From Methanobacteriota archaeon (GTDB lineage: Archaea > Thermoplasmatota > Poseidoniia > Poseidoniales > Poseidoniaceae): 35,945 bases of DNA. A program made the translations under genes and the position numbers. This document shows positions 1 through 22,113 of this stretch, piece by piece. Each line of letters begins with the position of its first letter. The first letter of the stretch is position 1. Location: positions 20,713 through 56,657 of the forward strand of contig PAJM01000032.1 in the NCBI GenBank assembly GCA_002706065.1. Reading direction: 5' to 3'. Below the pieces are notes generated by a model that was not told where the DNA came from, did no database searches, and saw only the letters and a list, made by a program, of their open reading frames with translations.

Positions 1-519
1 GATTGGACTCCACTACGAATTGCAAAAGATGGATGTGGGTTGCCGACCGTTTCGAACACAGTTGCTGAACTTGCGCAAATCTATGCCGGGCTTGTTCGCG
101 ACAAAAATGAAGATTGGATTTGGGAAGCCATGGTTCGCCATCCTGACCTCGTTGGTGGATTCAATCGCTTGGATTCTACAATTCTCAAAGCAGGCGATGG
201 CTTGGTTATCGCCAAAGAAGGTGCAGATGGGTTGCTTGGTTTGGCTATTGAACATCCAGACTATCCAAAAGGACTTGGCATTGTCGTTAAAATCGCACAC
301 GGATGGAACGCACAAGCAACATGGTATGTCGCTCGTGCCATTCTCGGTGTTCTTGGTATTGATTTGAGAAATCCGTACCCTCTGCATCGACAAAAAGCAT
401 TCATCGTTCCAGGAATCGTCCCTGAACGCTACATCAAGGTGCTTGAAACCATTCCGACTTGGGATGAATGGGATCCTGATCAAGACCGCTGGATGTACGA
501 TGCGGAGTTGAACCGATGA
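1..519 (+). CDS. L-asparaginase II family protein (COG4448-like), 5'-truncated by the window edge
   Basis: Frame is open from base 1 (DWTPLRIAKDGCGLPTVSNTVAELAQIYAGLV...); DGCGLPT and the FNRLDSTILKAGDGLVIAKEGADGLLGLAI pattern resemble asparaginase II. Stop overlaps the next start (ATGA). Confidence 0.75.
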   Translation, partial: DWTPLRIAKDGCGLPTVSNTVAELAQIYAGLVRDKNEDWIWEAMVRHPDLVGGFNRLDSTILKAGDGLVIAKEGADGLLGLAIEHPDYPKGLGIVVKIAHGWNAQATWYVARAILGVLGIDLRNPYPLHRQKAFIVPGIVPERYIKVLETIPTWDEWDPDQDRWMYDAELNR

Positions 520-1961
520 ATGCAATGAACTTCATCAACGGCATTTTCGTTGATGCCATCGATGGAGAGACCATTCCCAACATTAATCCTGCAACAGGGC
601 AAGCTATTGGAACATTATCACGTTCGAATCATCGTGATGTCGAGACCACAGTAAGAGCTGCCGCAACCGCACAGCAGGATTGGTCTGCGTTGAGCATGCT
701 CGAGCGTGCCGATTGGCTTGACCGTATCGCAGATGGACTGGAAGATAGGAAGGAAGAACTTGCACAACGGGAATCAACAGATACTGGCAAACCGTTGGCT
801 TTGGCACGTCGTGTTGATGCACAACGGTCGATCGATAACTTCCGATTCTTTGCAGATTTTGCTCGAAAACAGGCGCCAGAGGTGTTTGAAATGAGCGATG
901 CAACAAACATTGTTCATCGAAATCCCATTGGGACGGTTGGCTTGATTACACCCTGGAATCTTCCTCTCTATTTGTTGAGTTGGAAGGTTGCTCCAGCCCT
1001 GTTGATGGGAAATACAATCGTAGCCAAACCAAGCGAACTGACACCGTTAACAGCCACTCTCATGTGTGAAGTCGCCAGAGACGTTGGGCTTCCTTCTGGT
1101 GTTCTCAACGTTGTTCACGGATATGGACCCGAAGTTGGACAAGCGATTCTTGAACACCCCTCCATTCGAGCAATCTCGTTCACAGGAGGCACAGCAACGG
1201 GCCGTCATGTCGCAGCAACAGCAGCGCCGATGTTCAAGAAACTCTCATTGGAATTGGGTGGGAAAAATGCGACCATCATCCTTGAGGATGCAGATTTGGA
1301 TGTGGCAGTTGAGGGCTCCGTTCGAGCAGGATTCACCAATGGTGGGCAGGTTTGTTTGTGCGGTTCCAGAATACTTGTTCATGCATCAATTGCGGATGAG
1401 TTTACTGCAAAACTTGTTGAAGCCGTTGAATCGATGACATGCGGCGCCCCTGAACACGAGTCCACACAAATTGGTGCGTTGATTAGTCAAGATCATATGA
1501 AAAAAGTGGAATCGTACATTCAACTTGGAATTGAGGAAGGCGGTGTCGTTCTTACCGGTGGTACGTCTGAGATGACCGGTCAAGTTGGGCCCTCGCCTGA
1601 AGGGGCATTCCTAAGACCGACAGTTATCGATGGACTCAAATCTACCGCACGCACATCAACTGAGGAAATCTTCGGTCCTGTTGTGACCATTCACCGATTT
1701 AATTCGGATGATGAGGCCATTGAAATTGCGAATTCAACAGAATACGGCCTGGCTGGGTCGATATGGTCAAGCGATTCCAATCGAGCACACGAGATCGCGA
1801 AAAGGATTGAGACAGGGATCGTTTGGGTGAATACGTGGCTGCATCGAGATTTACGTACACCGTTTGGGGGCGTGAAAAACTCAGGAGTTGGTCGGGAAGG
1901 TGGAGCTTGGAGCCTTGGATTCTTCTCCGAACCATTGAATGTTTGCATTAAGCATGATTGA
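516..1961 (+). CDS. Aldehyde dehydrogenase, 2-aminomuconate/2-hydroxymuconate semialdehyde dehydrogenase type (ALDH8/AmnC-like)
   Basis: ALDH motifs TPWNLPLYLLSWKVAPALLMGNTIVAKPSELTPLTA, FTGGTATGRHV, LELGGKNATII, catalytic NGGQVCLCGSRI, EEIFGPVV; closely resembles the ALDH8A1/AMSDH subfamily (SPWNLPLYLLTWK..., ICLCTSRI). Confidence 0.85.
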   Translation: MNAMNFINGIFVDAIDGETIPNINPATGQAIGTLSRSNHRDVETTVRAAATAQQDWSALSMLERADWLDRIADGLEDRKEELAQRESTDTGKPLALARRVDAQRSIDNFRFFADFARKQAPEVFEMSDATNIVHRNPIGTVGLITPWNLPLYLLSWKVAPALLMGNTIVAKPSELTPLTATLMCEVARDVGLPSGVLNVVHGYGPEVGQAILEHPSIRAISFTGGTATGRHVAATAAPMFKKLSLELGGKNATIILEDADLDVAVEGSVRAGFTNGGQVCLCGSRILVHASIADEFTAKLVEAVESMTCGAPEHESTQIGALISQDHMKKVESYIQLGIEEGGVVLTGGTSEMTGQVGPSPEGAFLRPTVIDGLKSTARTSTEEIFGPVVTIHRFNSDDEAIEIANSTEYGLAGSIWSSDSNRAHEIAKRIETGIVWVNTWLHRDLRTPFGGVKNSGVGREGGAWSLGFFSEPLNVCIKHD

Positions 1962-2016: not shown

Positions 2017-2838
2017 ATGTCGGTTCACACTAAGGCGACGAAAGTAACAACGCATACGCTCCAAGAGATGAAGCGAGCGAACGAACCAATTACGATGTTA
2101 ACAGCATACGATTTTTCTTTGGCGCGTCTCGTTGACGCTGCTGGCGTTGACGTCATTCTCGTTGGTGATTCTGCATCGAATGTTATGGCCGGTCAGGTGA
2201 CGACCGTACCCATGACACTTGACCACATGATCTACCATGCACAGTGTGTTCAACGAGCCGTCGACCGTGCTCTCATCGTCGTCGATATGCCGTTTGGAAC
2301 CTACCAAGGAAATTCAAGGCAGGCGCTCGAGAGCGCAATTCGAATCATGAAAGAGGCAGAAGGCCATGCTGTCAAGCTCGAGGGAGGTTCAGAAATTGTT
2401 GAATCCATTGAGCGTATTTTGACAGCAGGAATTCCTGTGATGGGTCATCTTGGACTCACACCTCAAAGCATCTACAAATTCGGTACCTACACGGTTCGTG
2501 CGAAAGAGGATGAAGAGGCAGAGAAATTGATTGCTGATGCAAAGCTGCTCGAAGCAGCAGGCTGTTTCGCGATCGTCCTCGAGAAGATACCGAAGGAACT
2601 TGCCCAGCGCGTTCAACATGAGTTGAACATTCCAGTGATTGGAATCGGTGCAGGACCACACTGCGATGGTCAAGTTTTAGTTTTGCACGATCTTCTTGGA
2701 ATTACGATGGATTTCTCGCCCCGATTCCTTCGACGTTATCTGAATCTGGCCGAAGAAATTGATGGTGCCATTAAGTCATACTGCGATGATGTACGTTCTG
2801 GTGATTTCCCGAACGAGTCCGAATCGTATACTTCTTAG
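2017..2838 (+). CDS. panB: 3-methyl-2-oxobutanoate hydroxymethyltransferase
   Basis: MLTAYDFSLARLVDAAGVDVILVGDSASNVMAG, KLEGG, GIPVMGHLGLTPQS, IGIGAGPHCDGQVLVLHDLLGI: diagnostic PanB motifs. Confidence 0.95.
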   Translation: MSVHTKATKVTTHTLQEMKRANEPITMLTAYDFSLARLVDAAGVDVILVGDSASNVMAGQVTTVPMTLDHMIYHAQCVQRAVDRALIVVDMPFGTYQGNSRQALESAIRIMKEAEGHAVKLEGGSEIVESIERILTAGIPVMGHLGLTPQSIYKFGTYTVRAKEDEEAEKLIADAKLLEAAGCFAIVLEKIPKELAQRVQHELNIPVIGIGAGPHCDGQVLVLHDLLGITMDFSPRFLRRYLNLAEEIDGAIKSYCDDVRSGDFPNESESYTS

Positions 2839-3320
2839 AGGTAAATGAAGGCTAGAACGCCTCCGCAGAACCCACCAATGTTGACTGCCATACCATGCCA
2901 AAGGCCGTATCTGAAGGGTGGGAATTCAAATTGAAGCCAGAATGAGCTTATGAAAATCCAAGCAATGGTTGGAATAAATCCAGCAAGGTAAAGTGAAGAG
3001 GTACCAAACATCCAGGCCATCGACAGAGTACATGCAGTAACTGCAAAACCCATCGCATATTCACCTGCTCGCTCCATCTCCATTCCAACGAGTTGCTTGT
3101 AAAACAGTGGAGATACAAGAAGATACATTGCAAAGGCTCCGTGAACTGGATTTGGAACGAATGTATCGATTCGAGGCATGACTGTCAGTTGCCACAGAGC
3201 TCCAAATGCCATTCCAATAAGTAGAGGAGCCATCATGTGGCGAAGCATGTCTGAGAAGATTTCCTGACCGGAGACAGAACCCTCCTCAGATGGAACCGTA
3301 TCATTTGTGGTCTCCGACAT
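2835..3320 (-). CDS. Integral membrane protein of unknown function (about 4 TM)
   Basis: 161-aa ORF with several hydrophobic segments; stop codon overlaps the convergent panB stop. Confidence 0.6.
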   Translation of the reverse strand: MSETTNDTVPSEEGSVSGQEIFSDMLRHMMAPLLIGMAFGALWQLTVMPRIDTFVPNPVHGAFAMYLLVSPLFYKQLVGMEMERAGEYAMGFAVTACTLSMAWMFGTSSLYLAGFIPTIAWIFISSFWLQFEFPPFRYGLWHGMAVNIGGFCGGVLAFIYL

Positions 3321-3401: not shown

Positions 3402-4298
3402 ATGGCCAAAGGTTCGATTGTAGCAGGCTGTCTTGCACCTCACCCTCCTCATCTTGTTTATGCGGAGAATCCTCCGCAAAATGAACCCACTTCAGAAGGA
3501 GGTTGGGAACAGTTGCGATGGGGTTATGAACGACTACGAGAATCGCTTTCAAACATCGATCACGATGTCCTTGTCATTCTTTCTCCACATTGGCAAACCT
3601 ATGTGGGGACTCACTTCCTTGGCCTCTCTCACTTTGAGGGACTTTCTGTTGACCCCATCTTTCCAAACCTGTTTCGATACTCCTACGATCTCAATATCGA
3701 TGTTGAACTAAGCAAAGCAATTCATGACAAGGCAGCCAACGCTGGTCTTGCTGTAAAAATGATGGAGAACCCAGATTTCCGTGTAGATTATGGAACCATC
3801 ACGACCGGGCACATGGTCAACCCTGCTTTTGATAAGCCAATGGTTGTGATTTCTTCGAACCGTTCAAGGCATTACTACTCGGTCGAGGTGATGCAAGAGA
3901 TGATGATGGAATTGGGTCGAGCAACTCGAGATGCAATTCTTGAAAGTGGAAAGAAAGCTGTTGTCCTTGCCTCTAATTCGCTTTCGCATCGACATTTTAC
4001 AACAGAGTCGGACGTTCCTGAAGACATGAGTAAAGAACACATTGCCAGTCATGCAATGCATCTTTGGGACATGCGAATTATAGACTACATGCGAACAGGT
4101 CAAGCCCAACGAATCATTGACGAGATGCCTGAATTTACGGAACAAGCCATCGCAGAATCGGACGGTGGAGGCCTTACTTGGCTCCTCAGTACGCTTACTG
4201 TCCCGTCCTATCCAGCCATCCTTCACGGATATGGGACCATCATCGGAACTGGAAACGCCATCGTAGAATGGCCGTGCTACCTGCATCAGGAGGTTTGA
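3402..4298 (+). CDS. amnB: LigB-family extradiol dioxygenase, 2-aminophenol 1,6-dioxygenase beta (catalytic) subunit-like
   Basis: From ATG 3402: IVAGCLAPHPPHLVY (H14), VILSPHW (H63), VDYGTITTGH (Y130), SNSLSHRHF (H196), AIAESDGGG (E252). Each is at a constant +1 offset from the residues I recall for AmnB (H13, H62, Y129, H195, E251). The ORF-track start at 3345 is an upstream extension. Confidence 0.85.
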   Translation: MAKGSIVAGCLAPHPPHLVYAENPPQNEPTSEGGWEQLRWGYERLRESLSNIDHDVLVILSPHWQTYVGTHFLGLSHFEGLSVDPIFPNLFRYSYDLNIDVELSKAIHDKAANAGLAVKMMENPDFRVDYGTITTGHMVNPAFDKPMVVISSNRSRHYYSVEVMQEMMMELGRATRDAILESGKKAVVLASNSLSHRHFTTESDVPEDMSKEHIASHAMHLWDMRIIDYMRTGQAQRIIDEMPEFTEQAIAESDGGGLTWLLSTLTVPSYPAILHGYGTIIGTGNAIVEWPCYLHQEV

Positions 4299-4300
4299 GC

Positions 4301-5695
4301 ATGGCGAACCCAATCGTCGCATCGTATGTTGTTCCAGTTCATCCACATCCGTTGCTCGTACCTGAGAAAAACGAAGGTTGGCAACGTCTTCGTAACGCGT
4401 TCGATGAAGCCCGAGAACACATCGCTCAAGGCGATGCTGACTTGATGATCATCTATTCAACAACATGGCCAAGCATCATTGGTCATCAGATACAGGCTGA
4501 TCCAAACCCAACGTGGACGCTCGTTGACCAAGATTTCCACGATTTAGGTTCAATGGACTATTCCTTTCGAATCGACACTGACTTTGCTGAGGCTTGGAAT
4601 TCGGCCAACCATGCCCGTGGTTTGCAAAGCCGAACAGTCGCCTACAACGGTTTTCCAATCGATGTGGGTTCGGTCGTCGCACTAAAATTACTCAATCCTG
4701 ACAATGCGATTCCAGCGGTGATTGTTTCATCGAATGTCTATGCAAACCGTTCAGAAACGACCATCTTGGCAAAATCATGCCTCGATGTGTTGAAATCAAC
4801 AGGGAAGAAGGCTGTGGCCGTCACTGCGATGTCAATGTCCAATCGAATGTTCACAGAATTTATTGATGCTGCTGACGATAAAATCCACTCGCTCAAGGAC
4901 GATGAATGGAATCGAAAAGTGCTACAATTCCTCGAAGAGGGACGACTCGAAGACGTAGCTCAGCTTTCTCGAACCATTCACCAACAAATACGTGTCCAGA
5001 AGGTTGTAACGTTCAAACCGATGTGGTGGTTGTCGGCCATGAACGACAATCGAAATGATTTGACGGGTAAGGTTCTTGCATACGAAGCCCTTCATGGCGC
5101 TGGTGGGGCAGTAGTCCATCTGGACCCAACATCAAATGGGATGGGAGACAAAGAATACGACGAAGATGATGTCGAGGTTTATCGGGGTGACCGAAACGTC
5201 CTCGATGCGGAAGACTCCACCGTACCTCATCCTGTAGATTCAACAAACGAAGGACCAGATTTGTGGGACCCTGCGGAAGGCGAGGGTGCTGTGAATACGG
5301 ATTCAGCACCGAAACCTGTCGGTTTGTATCCGCATGCTCGCCGTGTTGGTGACCTTCTGTATCTGTCAGGAGTCGGCCCCCGGCAGCCCGGTACGAATGC
5401 GATTCCTGGTGGGCCAATTCGTGATGCGGATGGTCAACCATTGGAATACGACATCAAGGCTCAAACACGAGCGGTTGTCGAGAACATTGCTCGAATTCTT
5501 GAGGAAGCTGGTTCTTCAATGGAGAAGGTGGTCGATGTGACATCCTTCCTCGTTGATATGGATCGAGACTTTACGGGTTACAACGAGGTGTGGGCCGAAA
5601 CCCTCGGTCACTACGGACCGACTCGAACAACACTGGCCATTCGAGCATTACCCACTCCAATCGCTGTTGAGATGAAGGTAATCGCAAAGATTTGA
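4301..5695 (+). CDS. Fusion: 2-aminophenol 1,6-dioxygenase alpha-like domain (N-term) + RidA/YjgF-type 2-aminomuconate deaminase domain (C-term)
   Basis: ATG 4301 preceded by aggagg. N-terminal LigB-like fold (ASYVVPVHPHPLLVPEKNEGW...); C-terminal KPVGLYPHARRVGDLLYLSGVGPRQPGTNAIPGG...VVENIARILEEAGSSMEKVVDVTSFLVDMDRDFTGYNEVWAE...RTTLAIRALPTPIAVEMKVIAKI is characteristic of AmnD-type RidA proteins. Confidence 0.85.
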   Translation: MANPIVASYVVPVHPHPLLVPEKNEGWQRLRNAFDEAREHIAQGDADLMIIYSTTWPSIIGHQIQADPNPTWTLVDQDFHDLGSMDYSFRIDTDFAEAWNSANHARGLQSRTVAYNGFPIDVGSVVALKLLNPDNAIPAVIVSSNVYANRSETTILAKSCLDVLKSTGKKAVAVTAMSMSNRMFTEFIDAADDKIHSLKDDEWNRKVLQFLEEGRLEDVAQLSRTIHQQIRVQKVVTFKPMWWLSAMNDNRNDLTGKVLAYEALHGAGGAVVHLDPTSNGMGDKEYDEDDVEVYRGDRNVLDAEDSTVPHPVDSTNEGPDLWDPAEGEGAVNTDSAPKPVGLYPHARRVGDLLYLSGVGPRQPGTNAIPGGPIRDADGQPLEYDIKAQTRAVVENIARILEEAGSSMEKVVDVTSFLVDMDRDFTGYNEVWAETLGHYGPTRTTLAIRALPTPIAVEMKVIAKI

Positions 5696-5804: not shown

Positions 5805-7223
5805 ATGGCGATTTCTAAACTCGATTCTCTCGTCGGCAAAGGTGCTGAAACAATTAAAAAGACGCTCAAACGGAGTGTCGGACTTTCAGGTGTTGTCATC
5901 ATCTCATTGTCTGCTATGCTTCCAGGAATTTTCGTCACACCTACGTTTGCGGCCGACATCATGGGCAACGAAGGTGCTGGAATTTGGTTGGCCTTCATCG
6001 TTGCAGCAGCAGTGGTACTTCCCGCTGCAATCTCCAAAGCAGAATTGTCTTCTGGAATGCCATCGAGTGGTGGATCGTACGTCTATCTTGAGCGGGTCTA
6101 TGGGCCACTGATTGGAACGATAAGCGGACTTGGACTATGGGCGTCATTTTTGTTGAAATCGGGTTTCGCCCTGATCGGTTTTTCTGCCTATTTCGTGGTT
6201 GTTACTGAGTACTTCGCCATCGAGATGGAAATGATGGTTCTATCCATGAGTGCCTTGGTCCTAATCACGATTGTGAACCTTCTTGGTGTCAAGAAGGTCA
6301 AGGCGATTCAAACACCTGTCTTACTCGTCACGCTTCTTATGTTGTTCATAACGTGCATCGCCGCCTTCTTCGTGGATGGTTTCGATGGCAGCCGTCCGGC
6401 CAAAGCAGCCTTTGATACGGATCTATGGACACTTGCTGAAGCCTCTGCCTTCGTATTTGTTGCCTATGCTGGGGTTACAAAAGTTGCAGCCATTGGTGGT
6501 GAGGTCAAAAATCCAGAAAAGAATCTTCCAGCAGGGATGCTTCTCTCCTTGCTTATCGCAACCATCCTTTACGCATCAGTTGCCTATCTGATGATGGCGG
6601 CAATTCCGGGTACATGGTGGGAAGATGGTGGAGAGATCGTCGAAAACCCAATCTTTGTCTTCGCAGAAAAAGTCGCTGGGACCGAATTTGGTATCTTTGC
6701 GGCTGTTATCTCGGTTCTTGCCATGATCTCCATGGCTCTTGCAGGTATCCTTGCCTCCTCTCGATTCTTGTTTGCGATGGGGCAAGACAAACTGCTTCCA
6801 CCTGCTCTTGAGGAAGTCAATGAAAAATATGGTACACCACATTGGCCGATTATTGTGACAAGTCTGGCGATGGGTCTTGCCATCTTCTTTGTACCACTCA
6901 AGGATGTTGTTAAATTGGCATCCGGTTTCAAAATCATGATCTTCATTATGATCAACACGTGTGTGATCATACTGCGCCAAACAAGTGACCGCCACGGTTG
7001 GAACCCGACCTACAAGGGAGCGTTGTACCCCGCCATGCAAATGTGGGGCATCCTTGCCGGATTGTTCCTAATCTACTTCATTGGTGAAAAAGCGTTTGTT
7101 GGTGCTACGGCTGCTATCGGAGCTGGTCTCGTAACGTACATTCTCTATGGGAAGATGTATGCAAAGCATGAGCGAACACCGTTCCAGACTCTTCGTCGTT
7201 CACTGACCAACAAATCAGAGTGA
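5805..7223 (+). CDS. APC superfamily amino acid permease
   Basis: 472 aa, ~12 TM; GLSGVVIISLSAMLPGIFVTPTFA, KAELSSGMPSSGGSYVYLERVYGPLIGTISGLGLW, ALAGILASSRFLFAMGQDKLLP typical of APC permeases. Confidence 0.85.
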   Translation: MAISKLDSLVGKGAETIKKTLKRSVGLSGVVIISLSAMLPGIFVTPTFAADIMGNEGAGIWLAFIVAAAVVLPAAISKAELSSGMPSSGGSYVYLERVYGPLIGTISGLGLWASFLLKSGFALIGFSAYFVVVTEYFAIEMEMMVLSMSALVLITIVNLLGVKKVKAIQTPVLLVTLLMLFITCIAAFFVDGFDGSRPAKAAFDTDLWTLAEASAFVFVAYAGVTKVAAIGGEVKNPEKNLPAGMLLSLLIATILYASVAYLMMAAIPGTWWEDGGEIVENPIFVFAEKVAGTEFGIFAAVISVLAMISMALAGILASSRFLFAMGQDKLLPPALEEVNEKYGTPHWPIIVTSLAMGLAIFFVPLKDVVKLASGFKIMIFIMINTCVIILRQTSDRHGWNPTYKGALYPAMQMWGILAGLFLIYFIGEKAFVGATAAIGAGLVTYILYGKMYAKHERTPFQTLRRSLTNKSE

Positions 7224-7237
7224 GTGCGAATCTTGTT

Positions 7238-8047
7238 TCAAATACTGCGCAAGCGCCCGCCATCGACAGGTAGTGAAACACCGCGAATTGCTCCTGCTGC
7301 GGGTGACGCCAAGAATGCGATAACGGTGGCTGTTTCGAGCGGATCGATGAGGCGTTCAATCGGAACTTGACTCATCCATCCATCATGAATCGATTCAATC
7401 GGTTGCCCAGTTCGCTCATGTATGGACTGTGCAAGACTGCCCAATCGTTCCGTATCTGTAAATCCAGGAAGGACGTTGTTGATGGTGATGGCTGGATGCA
7501 ATTCTCTTGACAATGATTTTGCCCAAGATGCCATGGCTCCGCGAAGTGTGTTGGACACGCCTAGGTTTGGAATCGGTTCACGCACGCTTGTTGATATGAT
7601 TTGGATGATTCTACCGTAATTTGCTCGAACCATGCCTGGTGTGAGTAATTTGACCAATGTATGCGCTGCATGAAGATGTCGAGTAAAGGGCTGAGACAAC
7701 TCATCCACGGTTGCATCCAGCAATGGTCCACCAGGTGGTCCGCCTGAATTGTTAACAAGAATGTGAATTGGCCCTTGGTCAAGAAGAGGTTGAATGCATT
7801 CTGCAATGGATTCAGTATCTTCCAAATCCATCACCAATGCTTGATGATGGCCGGTTCCCAGCGTAGGTAATTCTTGAAGCAACGATTTGAGTTGATCTTC
7901 GCTTCTTGATGCAACAATAACGTTCGCACCTGCCTTTGCCATGATCCTTGCAGTAGCAGCACCAATCCCTCGGCTTGCACCGCATACAAGTGCGGTTTTT
8001 CCTTCAAGTGCATTCGACTGAAGCACGGCATCAGTGAGGAGGTCCAT
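7238..8047 (-). CDS. SDR family oxidoreductase with atypical active site
   Basis: GASRGIGAATARIMAKAGANVIVASR Rossmann motif, LVNNSGGPP, C-terminal VDGGRLRSI; expected YxxxK replaced around PNLGVSNTLRGAM. Confidence 0.85.
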   Translation of the reverse strand: MDLLTDAVLQSNALEGKTALVCGASRGIGAATARIMAKAGANVIVASRSEDQLKSLLQELPTLGTGHHQALVMDLEDTESIAECIQPLLDQGPIHILVNNSGGPPGGPLLDATVDELSQPFTRHLHAAHTLVKLLTPGMVRANYGRIIQIISTSVREPIPNLGVSNTLRGAMASWAKSLSRELHPAITINNVLPGFTDTERLGSLAQSIHERTGQPIESIHDGWMSQVPIERLIDPLETATVIAFLASPAAGAIRGVSLPVDGGRLRSI

Positions 8048-8085
8048 GGCTGCTCGAGCAGCCGCTATATCTTAGTGGTTCGCTC

Positions 8086-8856
8086 TCACAACCAATCCAA
8101 AATAGCATCTTGTTGAACCAACCAATCATCACTTGCAGCATCGATAATGCTGAAATGATCTCCGGGTAGCCATAGCTTTTGGACATCACAACCCTTAGCG
8201 TTCATTGCTCGAGCATAAGTTTCACTTTGTTCGAGAGGTACGTCAACGTCGCGTTCTCCGTGAATCAGAAGGACCGGTGATTTCGGCGGTAGATCGATCG
8301 GGTTCACCTTTTTCCACAGATCTTCGTTTTCGTACGGAGAACAGCCCATCCACTTGCGGATTGCATCCCCATCATCACTGAGTTTTGCATCATCAGCACC
8401 AAACAAATCAGTGATCGGTGACTGCGCAATTGCCAACCACGGTTTTCGTTCGGCTTTACTTGCCATCAACAGGGCGAGATGGCCACCTGCTGAATGCCCC
8501 ATGACCATGCTTCTGGTAATGTCAATGCCGGGTAAGAGTGCGAGCTGTCCCCATGCACGTAGAACATCTGATAATGTGTCCATCCATACACCTTCATCGC
8601 CTTTTTCCCAGCGTCGAAATTCGATGTTCCAACTTGCAACACCCGCATCACTCAAGGCGTTTGCGATGGGTAGCATAAGTTCAGAGGTGTACTCTTTTTT
8701 CCAGAATCCACCATGAATCAACATAATGCATGGGACACCATGGTCGTTTTGGAAAGGAGATGGATCGGCTGGCATATGCAGATCAGCATATTGCCATGGT
8801 TCTGCGCCCCACTGCATTCGATCGATGGGCATAATGGCCAACTCATGGCGTAACAC
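8086..8856 (-). CDS. Alpha/beta hydrolase, kynurenine-formamidase (arylformamidase)-like
   Basis: HGGFW oxyanion motif, nucleophile elbow GHSAGGHLA, LIHGERDVDVP (Asp), GDHFSI (His); HGGxW is the hallmark of eukaryotic AFMID/BNA7. Confidence 0.7.
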   Translation of the reverse strand: MLRHELAIMPIDRMQWGAEPWQYADLHMPADPSPFQNDHGVPCIMLIHGGFWKKEYTSELMLPIANALSDAGVASWNIEFRRWEKGDEGVWMDTLSDVLRAWGQLALLPGIDITRSMVMGHSAGGHLALLMASKAERKPWLAIAQSPITDLFGADDAKLSDDGDAIRKWMGCSPYENEDLWKKVNPIDLPPKSPVLLIHGERDVDVPLEQSETYARAMNAKGCDVQKLWLPGDHFSIIDAASDDWLVQQDAILDWL

Positions 8857-11646: not shown

Positions 11647-14600
11647 ATGTCCAAACTCTCCGTTCGTGCGTTCGTTCTGGTCACAATAATGTTGCTTGCA
11701 AGCGCATCGCCTCTTGCACAATTTACCAAAGCAGACCCTGAAATCGAACTACAAGTCGACATGAGTCACATGATTCTCGTTCCTGGAGAATCAATGAACC
11801 TCACGCTAACCATTGAGAACAACGGTTCTTCGATTGAGACCTACGACATTGAAGTTGCATCCCCAGGTCTTTCCTCTTTGTGGGCTGCAACGCCTTCGGC
11901 TAATTCCGTGTCGAATGTGCTGCCGACGTACAACGCGACGACGACCATCGTTGTTCAACTGGCAGAAACAGCAACACCAAGCGATAACGGAATGTTCACA
12001 CTCTTCGCCAACGAGAGCGATGGCAGTGCTTCATCGTCGATTGATGTTTACGTTAGCGTCGCCATTGTCTACAACCCACACCTCGATGCAACCGGCGTTG
12101 GTGATCAAGGCTTGTTGGCTCTACAACCTGGACAAACGGTTGATTTGTCGATTCCAGTTAGTAATCATGGTTCCGTTATGGATTCCTATCTTCTTAACGT
12201 CGGAGAGGAGCCTGACCTTACAGGCTGGTGGGCAAATTATTCTTCAAGTGGCTCAACAAACACGACGAACGCTCCTCCAGCATGGTCGATCTCCGTGAGC
12301 GATGTCCTTACGTTTGGAAATTCATACACCTCTGCAAATGGCCTTTCATCCATGCTGGAAGAACTTCTACGTAGTGCGAACAGTCCAAGCAACACCTCGG
12401 ATTTTACCACTGGGGGATGGACGATTGCTGACCACTGGGATGATGTCAACACCTCTGGAAGCGCTCAAAACCTTTCACTCGCATCTGGCGTTTGGGATAC
12501 AGTAGTTGTTCAGGATCAGTCACAAATACCTGGTTTCCCAAGAACTCATTCCGATTGGTTAGCAAGCAAAAACGGTAGCATCAATCTCGCAGATCGCATC
12601 GATTCGGAAGGTTCTGCTATGATGCTGATGATGACGTGGGGTCGACGCAACGGTGATGCAAGCAACCCAACGCTCTATCCCAATTATACCGTTATGCAGG
12701 ATCGACTGGAAGAAGGTTACATCGATTATCGGGACAACATCTCGCTGTCAACATCTGCTGAAATTTACATCGCTCCAGTTGGCCTTGCATTCAAGCACAT
12801 CTACGATTCAATCATAGCATCAGGTGGCAACCCGCTCTCTCCGACATCAACTTTCCATGGGCTGTATGTTACAGATGGAAGCCACCCATCGACCTCAGGC
12901 TCGTACCTTACTGCATGCGTTCTATTTGCAGCATTGACAGGCGATTCCCCAGTTGGATTAACCGACAATACAACGATGGATGCGACTCTACGTCTAACGC
13001 TACAGCAGGCAGCAGCTGAAGTCGTATTCAATGGCTCTACTGCCTACAGTTATCCTTGGGAATCTTCGGGATCGATTCAGGCCACGAATCAGCATTCGAG
13101 TTTCCCAACCGGTTGGGAAGTTCGATGGCTAGATGACCAAATAGAGAATGTTTCAGCAAACAATCAAGAAACTGCAACCTTGCGTATCTCCATTCCTTCG
13201 GATGCCAGTCCAGGTGCAACCGGGGTGCGTCTCTATGCAGGATCACTGTTTGGAAATCTAACCACGTCAACGCTCATGGTGGTTGATGTTCAAGCAAATT
13301 ATGATTTGCAAGTCGATTTCCTCAACGGTGATGATGAATTCCTACCTGGTCAACAAACCAACTCATCGCTGCGGTTAACCAACATCGGTACAACCTCTGC
13401 TTCCTTTGACTATGCGTTAACCGTACTCTCAGGGCCGTGTACTGCAGCACTTTTGTCGTATGCATCAACGATCGATGTTGATGCAAACGATGACCTCCCC
13501 TTCCAGGTGGATGTTGGCTCAACAGCGAACGTTGGCGACGTTTGCTCCCTACGTGTGACGGCGACACTTGGCTCCGATTCTGCAGTCTCGTTCGTACGCG
13601 ATTTCTCATTCGAGGTGGACCGTGAAATCGCCTTCGTTCTCCAAGGTCCAAGTGGACCCTCTGTAATCGATCCAGATGTTGAATCCACCATCGAAGTTCG
13701 AGTGTTCAATACAGGTACAGAATCCGAGACCTTCTCATTGCAAATCAACAGCAACGCTTCTTCACCGGTTACGCTGGTCCTTGATTCTCCGTCCTCAGTT
13801 GCCGTAGCCGCTGATGCTTCAGCGGTTTGGACATTAACAGCAACTGCAACAGAAGGTTCACTCGGCATCTATGAACGCCTTGTCACCGTGACACATGATT
13901 CATTGCTTAGCCAAAACCTCACCTTGGAATTTGATGTTCAATCGTCGGCAAGTCTCGCTCTTCAAGGACCACTCGATGGAAGAATCGTCGTCCAGTCTGG
14001 AGAAGATTCATCCGTTACACTTCACATAGAAAACGATGGCACGTCAGACTTGCTGCTCGATACGTTCACCATTTCTGGATTGCCCGGTGGTGTCGATGCA
14101 GTATTGCCCGATGTTAACGGAATTCTTCTCGAAGCAGGAGCATCACAGAACGTTTCGCTCAGTGTGAGCGCTTCAGCAGCAACGAGCGCACGAACCGATT
14201 CGCTTACGCTTCGCTTGTATTCGGATGATGCAGAAGCGTTGCTTGTCATTGAATTGCAAGTTGTTGATCGAACACTTGCACAATTGAGCCCGAATACCAA
14301 CCAAATCATAGCCGGCCCATCAGCACCGACCAACGTCACCATTGAAGTCACGAACATAGGTACTTTGCAGGACACATTCCTCTTGTCAATCGGTGCAGGT
14401 GAAACATCGAATTACTTTGAACTCTCATTGTCGGCAACATCTGTGAACCTCGGAATTGGTCAATCTGAGACGGTGGTATTGAGTGTGCGCGAGACAGCAA
14501 TTGGTGCAAATGCCAACGGATTGCCAATCAACATTGTTGCCACATCGACACTCGACCCGTCATCGACCGATGTCACACTTCTCACCCTCATCCCAATGAC

Positions 14601-15633
14601 TGCAAGTTCCTCCTTGACCGTCCTTACCGATTCCTCATCGGCAGAGGCGTCGGGAACCATTGAAGGAACCTTGATCGTCACAAATACTGGTAACAGTGTC
14701 GACGTTTTCTCCCTTTCATCGGTTGGTCTCGATTGTGACCTTGAATCCTCAGTCCTGCTTCAACCGGGTTCATCAACTCTTGAACTTCCTTGGTCATGCG
14801 ACGTTCCATCCGATGCTCTTGCCGGAGCAAATGCCTTCAGTTTCAGAGCAGTATCGAGTGCTCGTTCGGACGCAATTGAAAACGAAGCAGTTGTCTACAC
14901 AATCGATGCAACATGGAACGTCGATTCGGTTGTTGCACTGTCGATTGACAACACCGACTTGCAGATTCCTTACTTAGGGGGTTCATCGCTGACGTTAACG
15001 GTCACCAACCTCGCAAACATCGCAATTTCTGGTAAACTCACAACGGTTGGTATTGGAGATGGCCTCCTTGACATTCGTTTGAACAACACATTGGGAGAAG
15101 TGACCGATTCCTTTGCTCTTGAACCTGGTGCATCAGAAATTTTTGTTCTTCGATTCAATTCCCTGACAACCGATCAATTGGATGCTGAACTTCGTGTTCG
15201 AGCTCTTGTTCAAATTGATGGAAGCAGTGAAAATGCGGAGTCTGAGGTCATCGAAATTACCGTAAGTGGAAAATCCGAGCCGCCTCAGGGTATCACGCTC
15301 GCTGGCATCGAACTCGGAAAAACCACGACGTTGCAACTCATCGCCTTCGGCTATGTTTTGTTTGGTCTTGCAGTCATGGTGATCCGACTTCGCAAACCAC
15401 GTGCACCGAGAACAGAAGATGAAGACGGGACTGAAGAGGAAGAGGAAGAGGCCAAACAGTACGCACTCGGACCAAATGAATGCCGTATGGATTCAAACCG
15501 TCGCATATCATGTCCATCCTGTGATGCTCGATTGGCGGTACCTGGTGGGAATGAACCACCGTTCCGCTTCCAATGTCCGACCTGTGATTCCAACATCAGA
15601 GTCGTGGAATATGGATCTTCACCCAAATTCTGA
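11647..15633 (+). CDS. Giant secreted/cell-surface protein: signal peptide, Ig-like/CARDB-like repeats, embedded SGNH-hydrolase-like domain, C-terminal TM and cytosolic zinc-ribbon tail
   Basis: N-terminal signal (VLVTIMLLASASPLAQFTKA); SGNH blocks VLTFGNSYTSANGL / VVVQDQSQIPGF / DGSHPS; repeated 'NxGtxxDtFxLs' modules; TM LIAFGYVLFGLAVMVIRLRK, then acidic stretch and CPSC...CPTC. Confidence 0.8.
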   Translation: MSKLSVRAFVLVTIMLLASASPLAQFTKADPEIELQVDMSHMILVPGESMNLTLTIENNGSSIETYDIEVASPGLSSLWAATPSANSVSNVLPTYNATTTIVVQLAETATPSDNGMFTLFANESDGSASSSIDVYVSVAIVYNPHLDATGVGDQGLLALQPGQTVDLSIPVSNHGSVMDSYLLNVGEEPDLTGWWANYSSSGSTNTTNAPPAWSISVSDVLTFGNSYTSANGLSSMLEELLRSANSPSNTSDFTTGGWTIADHWDDVNTSGSAQNLSLASGVWDTVVVQDQSQIPGFPRTHSDWLASKNGSINLADRIDSEGSAMMLMMTWGRRNGDASNPTLYPNYTVMQDRLEEGYIDYRDNISLSTSAEIYIAPVGLAFKHIYDSIIASGGNPLSPTSTFHGLYVTDGSHPSTSGSYLTACVLFAALTGDSPVGLTDNTTMDATLRLTLQQAAAEVVFNGSTAYSYPWESSGSIQATNQHSSFPTGWEVRWLDDQIENVSANNQETATLRISIPSDASPGATGVRLYAGSLFGNLTTSTLMVVDVQANYDLQVDFLNGDDEFLPGQQTNSSLRLTNIGTTSASFDYALTVLSGPCTAALLSYASTIDVDANDDLPFQVDVGSTANVGDVCSLRVTATLGSDSAVSFVRDFSFEVDREIAFVLQGPSGPSVIDPDVESTIEVRVFNTGTESETFSLQINSNASSPVTLVLDSPSSVAVAADASAVWTLTATATEGSLGIYERLVTVTHDSLLSQNLTLEFDVQSSASLALQGPLDGRIVVQSGEDSSVTLHIENDGTSDLLLDTFTISGLPGGVDAVLPDVNGILLEAGASQNVSLSVSASAATSARTDSLTLRLYSDDAEALLVIELQVVDRTLAQLSPNTNQIIAGPSAPTNVTIEVTNIGTLQDTFLLSIGAGETSNYFELSLSATSVNLGIGQSETVVLSVRETAIGANANGLPINIVATSTLDPSSTDVTLLTLIPMTASSSLTVLTDSSSAEASGTIEGTLIVTNTGNSVDVFSLSSVGLDCDLESSVLLQPGSSTLELPWSCDVPSDALAGANAFSFRAVSSARSDAIENEAVVYTIDATWNVDSVVALSIDNTDLQIPYLGGSSLTLTVTNLANIAISGKLTTVGIGDGLLDIRLNNTLGEVTDSFALEPGASEIFVLRFNSLTTDQLDAELRVRALVQIDGSSENAESEVIEITVSGKSEPPQGITLAGIELGKTTTLQLIAFGYVLFGLAVMVIRLRKPRAPRTEDEDGTEEEEEEAKQYALGPNECRMDSNRRISCPSCDARLAVPGGNEPPFRFQCPTCDSNIRVVEYGSSPKF

Positions 15634-16510: not shown

Positions 16511-16520
16511 ATTATATAAT
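16511..16520 (+). promoter_or_regulatory. Archaeal TATA box for the 16540 gene, probably giving a leaderless transcript
   Basis: attatataat centred ~24-25 bp upstream of ATG 16540. Confidence 0.6.
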
Positions 16521-16539
16521 GTGTAGAAATGGGATTATT

Positions 16540-19500
16540 ATGCAAATCAGCACGCGAACAATGGCTCTTTCAATTGTCGTCATTTTTCTTGGTAGCTTAA
16601 TGGCAGGATTCACATCCGAATACAACGATGTGGAACCTGTGGTTCTTGAAGATGAACTTGTTGTTCAGAATCCATCACAGGCAACGAGTCCAGGCCACGT
16701 CGTCTTCGGACAGTACATCTCCTCCGACAACTGTGGCCATTGCTCCAAACAGGGAGGCGGCTCGGATGCACATCACTCAATCAAACAAAATCACCCTGAT
16801 GAGTATGTCTATGTCACATACATGTCTCAATCCTTCGGAGACACCGACAGTTCCCGTGCTGGCAACGTTGCACCATACAACTGGGTATGGACAACAAGTG
16901 GAGCTCCAGATGCTTACTTCGGAGATCGAACCGACCAGCGTCAAAGTGGTGCAAACTCCGCCTACACGACCTATGACCAAATCTTCTCAAGCGGTGGTGG
17001 AATGCACAGCACGGTCAACGACTATGGTATGACCGCAGCGATTAGCCAATCAGGGTCAAGTTACAACATCGACATTACCCACAAATACACAGGTCAAGGG
17101 AGTGCAGCAGGGAACATGAAACTCTACGCAGCCTTGGTTGACAAGGATTGCACAGGCTACTCCTACTCATCTGGTATTCCTCACGGTTACAACTGTTGGA
17201 TGGCGTGGCTCACAAGCGGTAATACCTTCAAATCCAAGAACCAAGGAACTGGAAGTTCATTTGCCAGTGTCGCCCCGACATCAACCTCGCAAACTGTTTC
17301 GTGGTCGAATGTTCCAGCATCTGTTGTCCCTGGCGGAATCAGTAAAGCAATCGTTGTTGGGGTGCTTATGAGTGGCAACAGCGTTTCTGTTGGAGGTTCA
17401 AGCGCACACGTATACCACGCCATTGACTCAACGATGGGGCCAAAGATGGACCTCTCCATTCCGAGTTTCACTGCAACAAGCCTAGCAGGATCATCGTACA
17501 TGCGTGGTGACATCGTTACCTTGGACGCAACCATTTCCAACACAGGGGACCTTGAGTACAACAGCGGTGGAACAGTAGATTTCTATTACCTCCTCAATGG
17601 AAACAAGAACTACATTGGGCAAGGGACTTCAATCGGAACAATGGCAACATCTGGTTCCACAAAAACCATGACTGCTCAACAGTCCTTTGATACCAGCGTA
17701 TTGCCTTCCAACAGCTGGAAGACGGTGTTCGGAGTAGAACTCTCCACCACGGGTGAAAGCGTAACATCAAACAATCAAGCAACGACTGATCTCGATCATG
17801 ACCGTCCTCCAAAATCTAAGACACCCCAGGTCATTGGGACGACTGAAATCAGCCGCGGAGAATACTTCTCCGTTCTCGCTAAAGGTAGCGCTGACGACAA
17901 CGTCGACAGCATCGACACCATGACATTCAACGTGGAGATTTCTCCAGCTGGCGCTAATCAGTGGTCCAGTGACGTCGTCACAGGTGGCCAAAACATTCTG
18001 TACTTGGGATCAGCAAACGAAGGCCGAGAGTATTCGCTCTTGCCAACCCTAGACATGGCTGCTGGCTTGTATGACCTGCGCACACGAACTGTGGATGGGC
18101 GTGGTCAAACCTCGGCTTTGTCCTATGCATACAATGCATTTGATTTGATGAATGCACCTCCATCCATCACGCCAAATCAGGTAAAACCTGTTCCTTGTGA
18201 CATCTCGACAAAGGTTGACATGACCGGTATCATTTCTGACCCAGAAACACCACTGTCCAACTTGGGAATTACGAGCAATGACCCAGCGTTTGTTGAGTGG
18301 CACCCATCGACTTCAGAGATTGAAGTTCTCTTCGCTTGGAGCCAGACACAAGGATGTCCTCTTGGGCAACAGGGTATTGAAATTTTCATGGATGATGGTG
18401 GCGACTATTCCGCTGAGGGTGAACTTCCGTACGGAACTATCCTCTTCAATGTCCTTGAAAATGGACAACCACGTTGGCAAGCATTGCCAACACAGATTGT
18501 AGATGAAGGTTCGATGAAGACACTCAGTCTCTTACCGTTTTTGTCCGACACGGATGATGAAGGAAACATGGTCTCCGCAGAAGAACTTGCTCTCGAGGTT
18601 GTACAAATGTCAACCGACGTTGTATTCGACATCACTCTTGACGGCACAAACATTGTGTTTACAACAATGGACGACGACGTCAATGGGGAAGTCTTGGTAA
18701 CCATCCGAGCAAGCGATGGTGAACAATTTGCTGATCAGACTCTCCTCGCCAAGGTGAATCCAATCAACGATGCACCTCGATTGGACCTCACAGGCCTTGA
18801 AGAAACCACCCTCAAACTTGGAACGCAGCGCGTCATCAACCTCATGGCCTTGTTGACCGATATCGATAACCCATCAAATGAGGCGTTCATCACCGTCTCT
18901 TCCGATGAGCAAGGTGCTGCAAAGTACAACCCAATCGACGGAACAATGACATTGAACTTCCAGACATCTGGCCTTCACATCGTCACAATCAACACAATTG
19001 ATCGTTACGACAGCAACACCTACACCATCACCGTTGACGTCTTTGACTCTTATCCGTTGTACATCACCAAAATCGATGATGGAAGCGGACAATTCTACGT
19101 CCACATGGAAGACACATACATCGATCAAATACCTACTGCAAACATTTTCCTGACAGACATTGCACCAACTTTCACTGTTATCGAAACCACGTGGAACATC
19201 TGCAATGACGAAACCGGTACATGTGACGGTTTGTACGAAGAAAATCTTGACATTACACGCTCGTTGGTTGGATGGTCGACACAATTGAACATCCCTTCGA
19301 TCTTTATGCCTGATCAATATGCTCGTCCGTCTGGTTCAACCTACAAGGACTACTACCAGCTTTCAATCAGTGCAGTTGATACCAATGGCGACGATTACAA
19401 AACCATTGCAAGTGTCAAATGGGACATTCTGGAAGAACTCCCTGCTCCTGCAGAAATGAACGATGAGATGCTCTTTGAGTACATTGCGGGACTGGCAGAA

Positions 19501-20016
19501 GAAATCGACGCACTCGAACTATCCTCCGCTGAGGCATTGAATGATGCCTACAAGGAAGAAGTCGCTGTGATTCTCGACGAAAAGCGCTCAAAGTACTCCA
19601 CTGCCTGTGAAGACCCACGTGCAGACTGTCCAAGCGAGCAAATACAATCTGATGGTACCTCACAAGGCGAATCTGAAAACACGAACTGGACACTCATTCT
19701 TACAATTGTTGCTGGTGTCCTTTTCGTTGCTCTTGCCTTTGGAATGATGGTTCGTCGTGGTGGGGATGCTAACCTTACTCAATCCGAACCAGCATGGACG
19801 CAGAATACGCTTCCAATTCATGACACGGTTGCCAACTCGATGTATGGTGGAGCAGCTCCAATCTTCCAGCAACAAATCCCTCAACCCGCTGCAATTCCCG
19901 CACCGCTACCTGTGCTTGCTGGACCTCCATTGCCGCCCGGTGGATTGCCTGCAGGCTGGACCATGGAACAGTGGCAATACTACGGCCAGCAGTATCTAGA
20001 TCGAATGCGACAGTGA
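16540..20016 (+). CDS. Large extracellular protein with N-terminal thioredoxin/Omp28-like CGHC domain, beta-sandwich repeats, C-terminal TM and proline-rich cytosolic tail
   Basis: Signal peptide MQISTRTMALSIVVIFLGSLMAGFTSE; HVVFGQYISSDNCGHCSKQGGG; CARDB/cadherin-like repeats (INDAPRLDLTGLEETTLKLG); TM WTLILTIVAGVLFVALAFGMMVRRGG; tail GLPAGWTMEQWQYYGQQYLDRMRQ. Confidence 0.8.
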   Translation: MQISTRTMALSIVVIFLGSLMAGFTSEYNDVEPVVLEDELVVQNPSQATSPGHVVFGQYISSDNCGHCSKQGGGSDAHHSIKQNHPDEYVYVTYMSQSFGDTDSSRAGNVAPYNWVWTTSGAPDAYFGDRTDQRQSGANSAYTTYDQIFSSGGGMHSTVNDYGMTAAISQSGSSYNIDITHKYTGQGSAAGNMKLYAALVDKDCTGYSYSSGIPHGYNCWMAWLTSGNTFKSKNQGTGSSFASVAPTSTSQTVSWSNVPASVVPGGISKAIVVGVLMSGNSVSVGGSSAHVYHAIDSTMGPKMDLSIPSFTATSLAGSSYMRGDIVTLDATISNTGDLEYNSGGTVDFYYLLNGNKNYIGQGTSIGTMATSGSTKTMTAQQSFDTSVLPSNSWKTVFGVELSTTGESVTSNNQATTDLDHDRPPKSKTPQVIGTTEISRGEYFSVLAKGSADDNVDSIDTMTFNVEISPAGANQWSSDVVTGGQNILYLGSANEGREYSLLPTLDMAAGLYDLRTRTVDGRGQTSALSYAYNAFDLMNAPPSITPNQVKPVPCDISTKVDMTGIISDPETPLSNLGITSNDPAFVEWHPSTSEIEVLFAWSQTQGCPLGQQGIEIFMDDGGDYSAEGELPYGTILFNVLENGQPRWQALPTQIVDEGSMKTLSLLPFLSDTDDEGNMVSAEELALEVVQMSTDVVFDITLDGTNIVFTTMDDDVNGEVLVTIRASDGEQFADQTLLAKVNPINDAPRLDLTGLEETTLKLGTQRVINLMALLTDIDNPSNEAFITVSSDEQGAAKYNPIDGTMTLNFQTSGLHIVTINTIDRYDSNTYTITVDVFDSYPLYITKIDDGSGQFYVHMEDTYIDQIPTANIFLTDIAPTFTVIETTWNICNDETGTCDGLYEENLDITRSLVGWSTQLNIPSIFMPDQYARPSGSTYKDYYQLSISAVDTNGDDYKTIASVKWDILEELPAPAEMNDEMLFEYIAGLAEEIDALELSSAEALNDAYKEEVAVILDEKRSKYSTACEDPRADCPSEQIQSDGTSQGESENTNWTLILTIVAGVLFVALAFGMMVRRGGDANLTQSEPAWTQNTLPIHDTVANSMYGGAAPIFQQQIPQPAAIPAPLPVLAGPPLPPGGLPAGWTMEQWQYYGQQYLDRMRQ

Positions 20017-20076: not shown

Positions 20077-22113
20077 ATGTCAGAAGCCGACCCCACAGAG
20101 GACGTCACTACCGAAGATGACTCTGAAATGGTCACTGTATGGGCCCCTGAGCCCACAAATGATGGAGATGGTCTTCTTTCGTCGAGCATTGACAATTGGA
20201 TTGATGAAGTCAAATTTGAAACGACAGAGGATGTTCCAATCCCCGACCGTCTGGTCGACCAAGTTATTGGACAAGAAGCAGGTTCTGTGGTCATCCGAAA
20301 AGCTGCTGAACAACGCCGACACATGCTCATGATCGGTGACCCGGGAACGGGCAAATCGATGCTTGCACGCTCAATGACAGATTTGCTGCCCCAGGATGCA
20401 CTTGAAGACGTTCTTGTGTATCCGAACGAGGACGATGAGAACGAACCTCGTGTTCGCTCAGTTCCTGCGGGACGAGCAGAGCGAATTGTACGCATTCAGA
20501 AAGAAGCCATCCGTGAACAGAAAGAGAAAGCGCAACGCATGCTCTTGATTGGATTCGGTGCTGTAGCCTTCTTGTTGGTCATTGTCGCAATACCCAGCGG
20601 TGACATCCTTACATTGCTCTTTGGTATGTTCCTCCTCATGTTCGGTTACATGTTCATTCGCAGCCGACTTGGCTCTGGAGACGAAGGGCGAATTCCGAAG
20701 GTCTTGGTTAAGCACGATATCGATGAGCGTCCACCGTTTGTTGATGCAACAGCAACGCTTTCGGGCTCGCTTTTGGGTGATGTCCGTCACGACCCATTCC
20801 AATCAGGTGGAATGGAAACACCTGCTCACGATCGAGTCGAACCAGGAGCAATCCACCGTGCCAACAAAGGCGTACTCTACATCGATGAAATCAATCTCCT
20901 ACGTTTGGAAGAACAACAGGCTCTTCTCACCGCCATGCAAGAGCGCGCTTTCCCAATTTCTGGAAGGTCTGAGCGCTCATCCGGGGCTCTTACCAAAACC
21001 GAACCTGTGCCTTGCGATTTCATACTGATCGCTGCAGGAAACTTAGATGCAATTCAGGGAATGCACCCAGCACTTCGCAGTCGTATTCGAGGGTATGGAT
21101 ATGAGGTCTACGTCAATTCAGAGATGCCAGATACCAACCGCAACCGAAAGCGGCTCATTCGATTCATTGCTCAAGAAGTCCGCCGTGACATGGGAAGCAC
21201 ACGAGAAATCCCTCACTTTGACAAGTCTGGTGTCTCTCTCATTCTCCGAGAAGCACAGCGCAGAGCAGGACGTCGTGGAAAACTCTCTCTTCGACTCCGT
21301 GAACTCGGAGGCTTGGTGCGAATTGCTGGTGACTTGGCTGCCGAAGACGGAGCACCGTACGTGACCGATGCGCACGTCCTTGCTGCACGTTCCATTGCAA
21401 AGCCACTGGAGCAGCAAGTCGCAGACCGAATGATTGAACGTCGATTGGATTACGCGCTCATCGTTAATTCAGGCAACCGTGTTGGTCGTGTCAACGGTCT
21501 TGCAGTCCTCGGTGCAAACTCAGGACTCTCGGATTTCTCAGGAATCATGCTCCCTGTTGAAGCTCTTGTTACTCCATCCCAAGGTGGTGGAGGTAAGATT
21601 CACGCAACAGGTGGATTGAGTGACCTCGCGAAGGAAAGCGTGACAAACGTCAGTGCAGTCATCAAGAAACTGACTGGCAAGGATGTATCTGATTATGACA
21701 TCCACATTCAGTTTGTTGATACACACGGTGTTGATGGCGATTCTGCATCCATCACCATCGCTACTGCGATCATCTCAGCACTTGAGAACATCCCAATACG
21801 GCAAGATCTTGCTATGACTGGTTCACTCTCTGTTCGAGGAGAAGTGCTCCCAATCGGTGGTGTAACGGCCAAGATTGAGGCTGCTGCACGTGCTGGCGTC
21901 AAGACCGTAATCATTCCTCGTTCAAACATGCAGGATGTTCTGCTTGACGAACAATTCGAGGGGAACGTCGAGGTCATTGCTGTCGATACATTGGATGAGG
22001 TCATGGAACATGCGCTCATCACTCATGAACAGAAGCAAAGTTTGGTTGAGCGATTAGGCTCGGTCATCGACCGTTTGACACCAGATCTATCAGGTCCAAC
22101 AACGTCGATTTGA
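20077..22113 (+). CDS. lonB: ATP-dependent membrane protease LonB (archaeal type)
   Basis: Walker [12 protein letters not shown], two-TM insertion ([39 protein letters not shown]) between Walker A and B, Walker [12 protein letters not shown], protease Ser in [12 protein letters not shown] and Lys in [14 protein letters not shown]. Confidence 0.95.

Follow-up and report, generated by a model that had tools for sequence, protein, structure and literature searches.

The window analyzed here, a stretch of 35,945 nucleotides from a Poseidoniaceae archaeon (GenBank assembly GCA_002706065.1, contig PAJM01000032.1, forward-strand positions 20,713 to 56,657), carries a group of genes related to those of 2-aminophenol degradation. 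Its forward strand begins with the C-terminal part of an asparaginase-II-like hydrolase (AsnII; PF06089; positions 1..519), which starts just upstream of the window on the same contig (full gene in L041, 12222-13229). There follow an ALDH resembling the 2-aminomuconate semialdehyde dehydrogenases of the AmnC type (516..1961; 4u3w, E 3e-143), AmnB, the catalytic beta subunit of 2-aminophenol 1,6-dioxygenase (APD) (3402..4298; 8ihg_A, E 8.7e-113), the fusion gene described below (4301..5695), and an APC amino-acid permease (5805..7223), which comes after the fusion in most of the loci read from the same family. On the reverse strand are an SDR (7238..8047), homologous to the SDR at the head of the clusters in bacteria, and an alpha/beta hydrolase (8086..8856), syntenic in relatives, which is a weak candidate arylformamidase (E 0.016 only against the kynurenine formamidase 4e11). 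A luciferase-like monooxygenase (LLM) is located just outside the window on the same contig (G000:C32:18878-20083).

Other genes are interspersed with these. The gene panB (ketopantoate hydroxymethyltransferase; 2017-2838), which has no evident metabolic link, is found within the cluster or close by in most of the archaeal loci that were read. Just upstream of AmnB, a divergent gene (2835-3320, reverse strand) encodes a small hydrophobic protein that has no Pfam or NCBIfam match and whose homologues, at 28-38% identity, occupy the same place in several genomes of the family. Further along, two genes (11647-15633 and 16519-20016) encode putative surface or secreted proteins of very large size, 1328 and 1165 aa, which apparently have signal peptides and carry hydrophobic segments at the C-terminal end.

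A dioxygenase alpha subunit fused to a RidA domain

The fusion gene, AmnA::RidA (4301..5695, forward strand), is a single stop-free ORF of 464 aa. Pfam recognizes LigB (PF02900) at residues 21-266 (E 1.1e-10) and Ribonuc_L-PSP/RidA (PF01042) at residues 334-463 (E 2.7e-25). The closest solved chain to the N-terminal part is the APD alpha subunit 3vsg_A (residues 5-273, E 1.2e-38), and the closest to the C-terminal part is the 2-aminomuconate deaminase 6izh (residues 333-462, E 4.7e-26 to 5e-25). The predicted model consists of two well-folded domains, with most blocks at pLDDT >90, and a disordered stretch between them. In Foldseek comparisons the LigB domain (aa 5-276; 4313..5128) matched 3vsg_A with a TM of 0.93, and the RidA domain (aa 330-464; 5288..5692) matched 6izh with a TM of 0.85-0.87 at 40% identity.

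The assignment of the LigB half to the APD alpha subunit, made in the earlier note, is upheld, as its sequence and fold are both closest to APD alpha chains. Where the beta subunit has its active-site residues H13, H62, H195 and E251 (3vsg_B numbering), the alpha half of the fusion has V, T, N and Q, whereas AmnB next door keeps all four; the deaminase would therefore be tethered to the non-catalytic partner. On the basis of sequence and predicted fold, we identify the fusion chain as the non-catalytic alpha LigB partner of the neighbouring AmnB. Adjacent genes for a non-catalytic alpha and a catalytic beta LigB subunit, with the beta residues kept, are shared with the characterized AmnAB and CnbCaCb enzymes (3vsg, 8ihg, 7txy), but here the alpha subunit bears a C-terminal RidA domain, whereas the actinobacterial alpha genes in our set are unfused.

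The two domains had been described as joined by an acidic linker, most of which turned out to belong to the alpha subunit itself, as its conserved C-terminal tail (aa 282-301; 5144..5203). This tail, GDKEYDEDDVEVYRGDRNVL, is strongly conserved across 30 proteins of the window's own family, and the segment formerly taken as linker, GDKEYDEDDVEVYRGDRN, has many positions identical in 30/30 of them. The same acidic tail precedes the stop codon of the split alpha gene in a locus of the sister family (L034). Because it is conserved in the one family and present before the stop in the other, the tail belongs to the alpha subunit. A true linker does exist, comprising ∼28 variable, disordered residues (about aa 302-329; 5204..5287). 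Over 38 fusions from several phyla, mean pairwise identity at aa 280-328 was 24%, with 58% and 63% in the two domains, and pLDDT in the predicted model fell below 50 at residues 298-322. Within the sister family, fused genes of one genus (g15; L030, L031, L062, L067) carry a Gly/Ala-rich hydrophobic stretch between alpha and RidA, e.g. SGAISAAAGAAIAGPVGGIAASIVAKK, which is missing from the linkers of the window's family; a similar stretch is found ahead of RidA in L032.

Occurrence of the fused gene

More than 100 genomes of the window's own family matched the fusion over its full length with no internal stop. These rule out misassembly or a frameshift as the cause of the join, and the fusion is natural, as had been claimed. 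A stop and start between the two ORFs was seen in none of the own-family loci read, all of which are fused. Most of the loci read in the sister family were split, usually by an ATGA-type stop/start overlap, with several genomes (g15, g19) fused in frame; in a third family the alpha and RidA genes were split.

Searching 85,462 species genomes with an alpha-subunit alignment gave 515 matching stretches, of which the best 80 were kept. Among these best 80 of 515, most of those outside Actinomycetota carry RidA fused, in the order LigB then RidA. The search across archaea and bacteria proposed in the earlier note thus found the combination recurring in the same order in several bacterial phyla: fused single ORFs were present in Bdellovibrionota, Acidobacteriota, Planctomycetota, Myxococcota, Latescibacterota and Krumholzibacteriota, as well as in one Sericytochromatia MAG and another Thermoplasmata MAG. 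Neither this wide bacterial spread nor the tryptophan context described below had been seen in that note.

A tree of 89 alpha domains required seven changes between the fused and split states (bootstrap range 6-7), at least three of which are forced by well-supported branches, and a single clade for the fused forms of the own and sister families was rejected (p-AU 0.005). On these grounds fusion or fission happened repeatedly, and comparison of the sequences suggests a join that was made or broken several times, with adjacent separate genes persisting in neighbouring lineages. One sister-family sequence (L032, genome G052) was left out of the final tree as its AmnA frame, at ∼7530-8680, breaks after about residue 212, by frameshift or sequencing error. 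In some Bdellovibrionales (L152, L162, L164, L165) the asparaginase-like gene sits between unfused AmnA and RidA genes.

Predicted function of the RidA domain

The C-terminal domain is strongly supported as a predicted 2-aminomuconate deaminase. Across 109 RidA copies, R105 and E118 (E. coli-type numbering) were kept in all 109, and K stood at the E120 position in 107; 6izh has K there too, whereas E or A is found in general RidAs of solved structure. The cleft residues S35, G36, R117 and K135 of the characterized deaminase AmnE were kept in 107-109 of the 109 copies, while the position of its E88 was D in 107. Most copies have the long Lp2-type loop seen in AmnE, and M96 and P126 of AmnE are conserved in the cluster RidA. 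In the RidA tree the cluster sequences and AmnD stood apart from general RidA with an SH-aLRT of 99.7, but the rival grouping was not rejected (p-AU 0.43), so that the tree supports this placement short of proving it. The suggestion that this RidA is of the AmnD type is supported by the fold and residue comparisons, 6izh being the nearest among solved RidA structures. Likewise, its placement in a 2-aminophenol module, rather than in general enamine detoxification, agrees with the AmnC-type ALDH, AmnB and AmnA beside it. A general housekeeping role was also considered and rejected, as a separate RidA paralogue, ∼35-38% identical, is present in several genomes of the sister and third families.

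The domain thus shares with AmnD/AmnE (6izh) the RidA fold, the long loop, K135, R117 and M96, and differs in being fused to a dioxygenase alpha subunit. It also differs at R56, which is Q in the window and N, E, Q or K in relatives. The characterized AmnE forms a hexamer from two trimers, for which this arginine is needed (PMC6742747). The earlier argument that a trimeric RidA could scaffold a larger complex has to be modified: the characterized deaminase is hexameric, yet the residue on which that state depends is not conserved here, and a trimer is the safer guess for the fused domain.

Conserved gene cluster and a probable link to tryptophan

In bacteria the fusion lies in a cluster with the order SDR-LLM-AsnII-ALDH-AmnB-AmnA::RidA-KynB, where KynB is frequent but not constant. 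The sole NCBIfam match of KynB is arylformamidase, at ∼200 bits (195-202; model cut-off 223). No KynB was found in the archaea, nor in the stretch read from four Bdellovibrionota loci that carry the cluster (L116, L120, L131, L134). The most complete single cluster (L111:1-7900) comprises tryptophan 2,3-dioxygenase (TDO), SDR, LLM, AsnII, ALDH, AmnB, AmnA::RidA and KynB, and in two other loci (L192, L194) TDO adjoins SDR and LLM. TDO was detected in every cluster genome tested, archaeal (11/11) and bacterial (28/28), 39/39 in total versus 2/14 controls, counts that ignore shared ancestry.

The LLM was found in 15/15 bacterial genomes with cluster-type AmnA, even when outside the 12-kb locus, and in 12/13 archaeal ones, both counts being uncorrected for shared ancestry. 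Two third-family genomes without AmnA, one of them 97% complete, had no LLM. Of four genomes whose AmnAB is unfused, three, with the classical actinobacterial type, also lacked it, and the fourth (L163) gave weak matches only. The LLM was present in one genome (G126) in which no AmnA was seen. In four genomes (G266, G268, G275, G287) the LLM was not beside AmnAB but 1-4 kb from TDO.

TDO and an arylformamidase-like enzyme are the steps shared with the classical kynurenine pathway (TDO, formamidase, kynureninase, 3-HAO, ACMSD), but beyond these, LLM and asparaginase-like genes are found here instead. No kynureninase scored above cut-off with the one HMM used in 13 archaeal and 28 bacterial genomes (0/41), and in the archaea tested ACMSD-family proteins were absent and 3-HAO gave only marginal cupin matches. 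The classical route to 3-hydroxyanthranilate was therefore rejected. Downstream of the deaminase, no 4-oxalocrotonate decarboxylase was identified in the archaea; each genome has one FAA-hydrolase-family protein, which is short and was not a convincing candidate.

A candidate kynureninase-free route

Based on gene content, tryptophan would be converted to kynurenine by TDO and arylformamidase. The LLM may then insert oxygen between the ring of kynurenine and its carbonyl in a Baeyer-Villiger reaction, giving a beta-aspartyl ester of 2-aminophenol, and the AsnII-like hydrolase may split this ester, or the anilide formed after an O-to-N shift, into aspartate and 2-aminophenol. By analogy to the characterized pathway, AmnB/AmnA would open the ring to 2-aminomuconate semialdehyde, the neighbouring ALDH would oxidize this to 2-aminomuconate, and the tethered RidA would free ammonia from it to give 4-oxalocrotonate. 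The Baeyer-Villiger reading explains the missing kynureninase and uses both of the otherwise unexplained enzymes, LLM and AsnII. Kynurenine is an aryl ketone. By sequence the archaeal LLM had no match in the PDB; its predicted fold was used instead, and the matches to it include luciferases, RutA and 4uwm, a type II Baeyer-Villiger monooxygenase, although 4uwm was not the top match. LLM folds also cover hydroxylases, desulfonating enzymes and ring-opening enzymes. A Baeyer-Villiger activity thus fits the luciferase-like fold predicted for the LLM, which does not single out the reaction. Among 50 relatives of the asparaginase-like protein, all have RSxxK, SHN and K.GA.G and 44 have DGC, but only 9 have CxGKH.

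The best explanation of these data, and one we consider probable, is that the fusion is a chain of an aminophenol-cleaving complex with a tethered deaminase, and that its 2-aminophenol most likely comes from tryptophan. A new, phylum-spanning tryptophan pathway, free of kynureninase and running via LLM and the AsnII-like hydrolase to the fusion complex, is about as likely as not. A search of open-licence papers found none describing a Baeyer-Villiger route from kynurenine, aminophenol in these archaea or a RidA-extradiol fusion.

Two other readings deserve weighing against this one. The same set of AmnAB, ALDH and deaminase degrades 2-aminophenol in known bacteria (PMC3790839), and the module could serve exogenous aminophenols or another aminophenol-like substrate, with TDO co-occurring for other reasons. 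This seems unlikely, given the TDO counts (39/39 against 2/14), the presence of TDO within the L111 cluster, the arylformamidase-like gene adjoining the fusion in many bacteria, and the LLM adjoining TDO when it is away from AmnAB. Flavin hydroxylation is the standard kynurenine step, and the LLM might instead hydroxylate kynurenine, or a derivative of it, on the ring, with an unrecognised enzyme removing the alanine side chain and AsnII acting as the formamidase where KynB is missing, as in the archaea. We regard this too as unlikely: AsnII is kept also in loci with KynB, kynureninase was not found in the genomes tested, and the archaea tested have no ACMSD-family proteins and at most marginal 3-HAO matches.

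The gene neighbourhood points to a new way of degrading tryptophan, one that can be tested, in many bacteria and in a large archaeal group that is probably the abundant marine Poseidoniales. Obligate predatory bacteria have been reported to possess TDO with no recognised next enzyme, and an unknown route was suggested for them in 2015 (PMC4646340). The bacteria concerned include Bdellovibrionota, and the pathway, if true, would supply that route.

Tethering of the predicted deaminase to the dioxygenase

The fusion had been taken to suggest channelling of unstable intermediates between its two activities, a claim that found no support in the analysis. Direct transfer is not supported because the dehydrogenase step between dioxygenase and deaminase is performed by a separate protein; furthermore, RidA sits on the non-catalytic alpha subunit, and the linker, besides being long, is disordered and varies in sequence. 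We interpret the fusion as co-localisation of the deaminase with the dioxygenase rather than channelling. The semialdehyde product of ring cleavage can form picolinic acid by cyclisation, a compound that inhibited the growth of Burkholderia (PMC3790839), and 2-aminomuconate proved too unstable to obtain (PMC6742747). The tether would hold the deaminase at the dioxygenase, where intermediates prone to picolinate cyclisation or decay arise.

An inverted order of steps would account for the deaminase, and not the dehydrogenase, being fused to the dioxygenase: RidA would hydrolyse 2-aminomuconate semialdehyde to 2-hydroxymuconate semialdehyde before picolinate could form, and the ALDH would then oxidize that product. 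The best NCBIfam model for the ALDH is indeed 2-hydroxymuconic semialdehyde dehydrogenase, but the match is below cut-off, the best solved relatives of the ALDH are 2-aminomuconate semialdehyde dehydrogenases, and the characterized deaminase 6izh acts on 2-aminomuconate (PMC6742747), all of which make this order doubtful. The join might also be without functional meaning, neighbouring genes having been united by loss of a stop codon and the product tolerated. The adjacency of the two genes in split lineages, the unconserved linkers and the seven state changes in the tree are in keeping with such an origin; we nevertheless think it somewhat unlikely, since the fusion is kept in more than 100 own-family genomes and in several bacterial phyla. 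Co-localisation by tethering remains our preferred reading, with the deaminase and dioxygenase of an aminophenol module held together across distant lineages.

In Actinobacteria the ARO microcompartment co-localises the early enzymes of 2-aminophenol degradation, including the dioxygenase and the aminomuconate deaminase (PMC10470539). The tether between dioxygenase and deaminase may, by analogy, serve a similar end, with a covalent fusion here where a protein shell is used there; the LLM of the cluster was not found in the three genomes with that actinobacterial type of AmnA.
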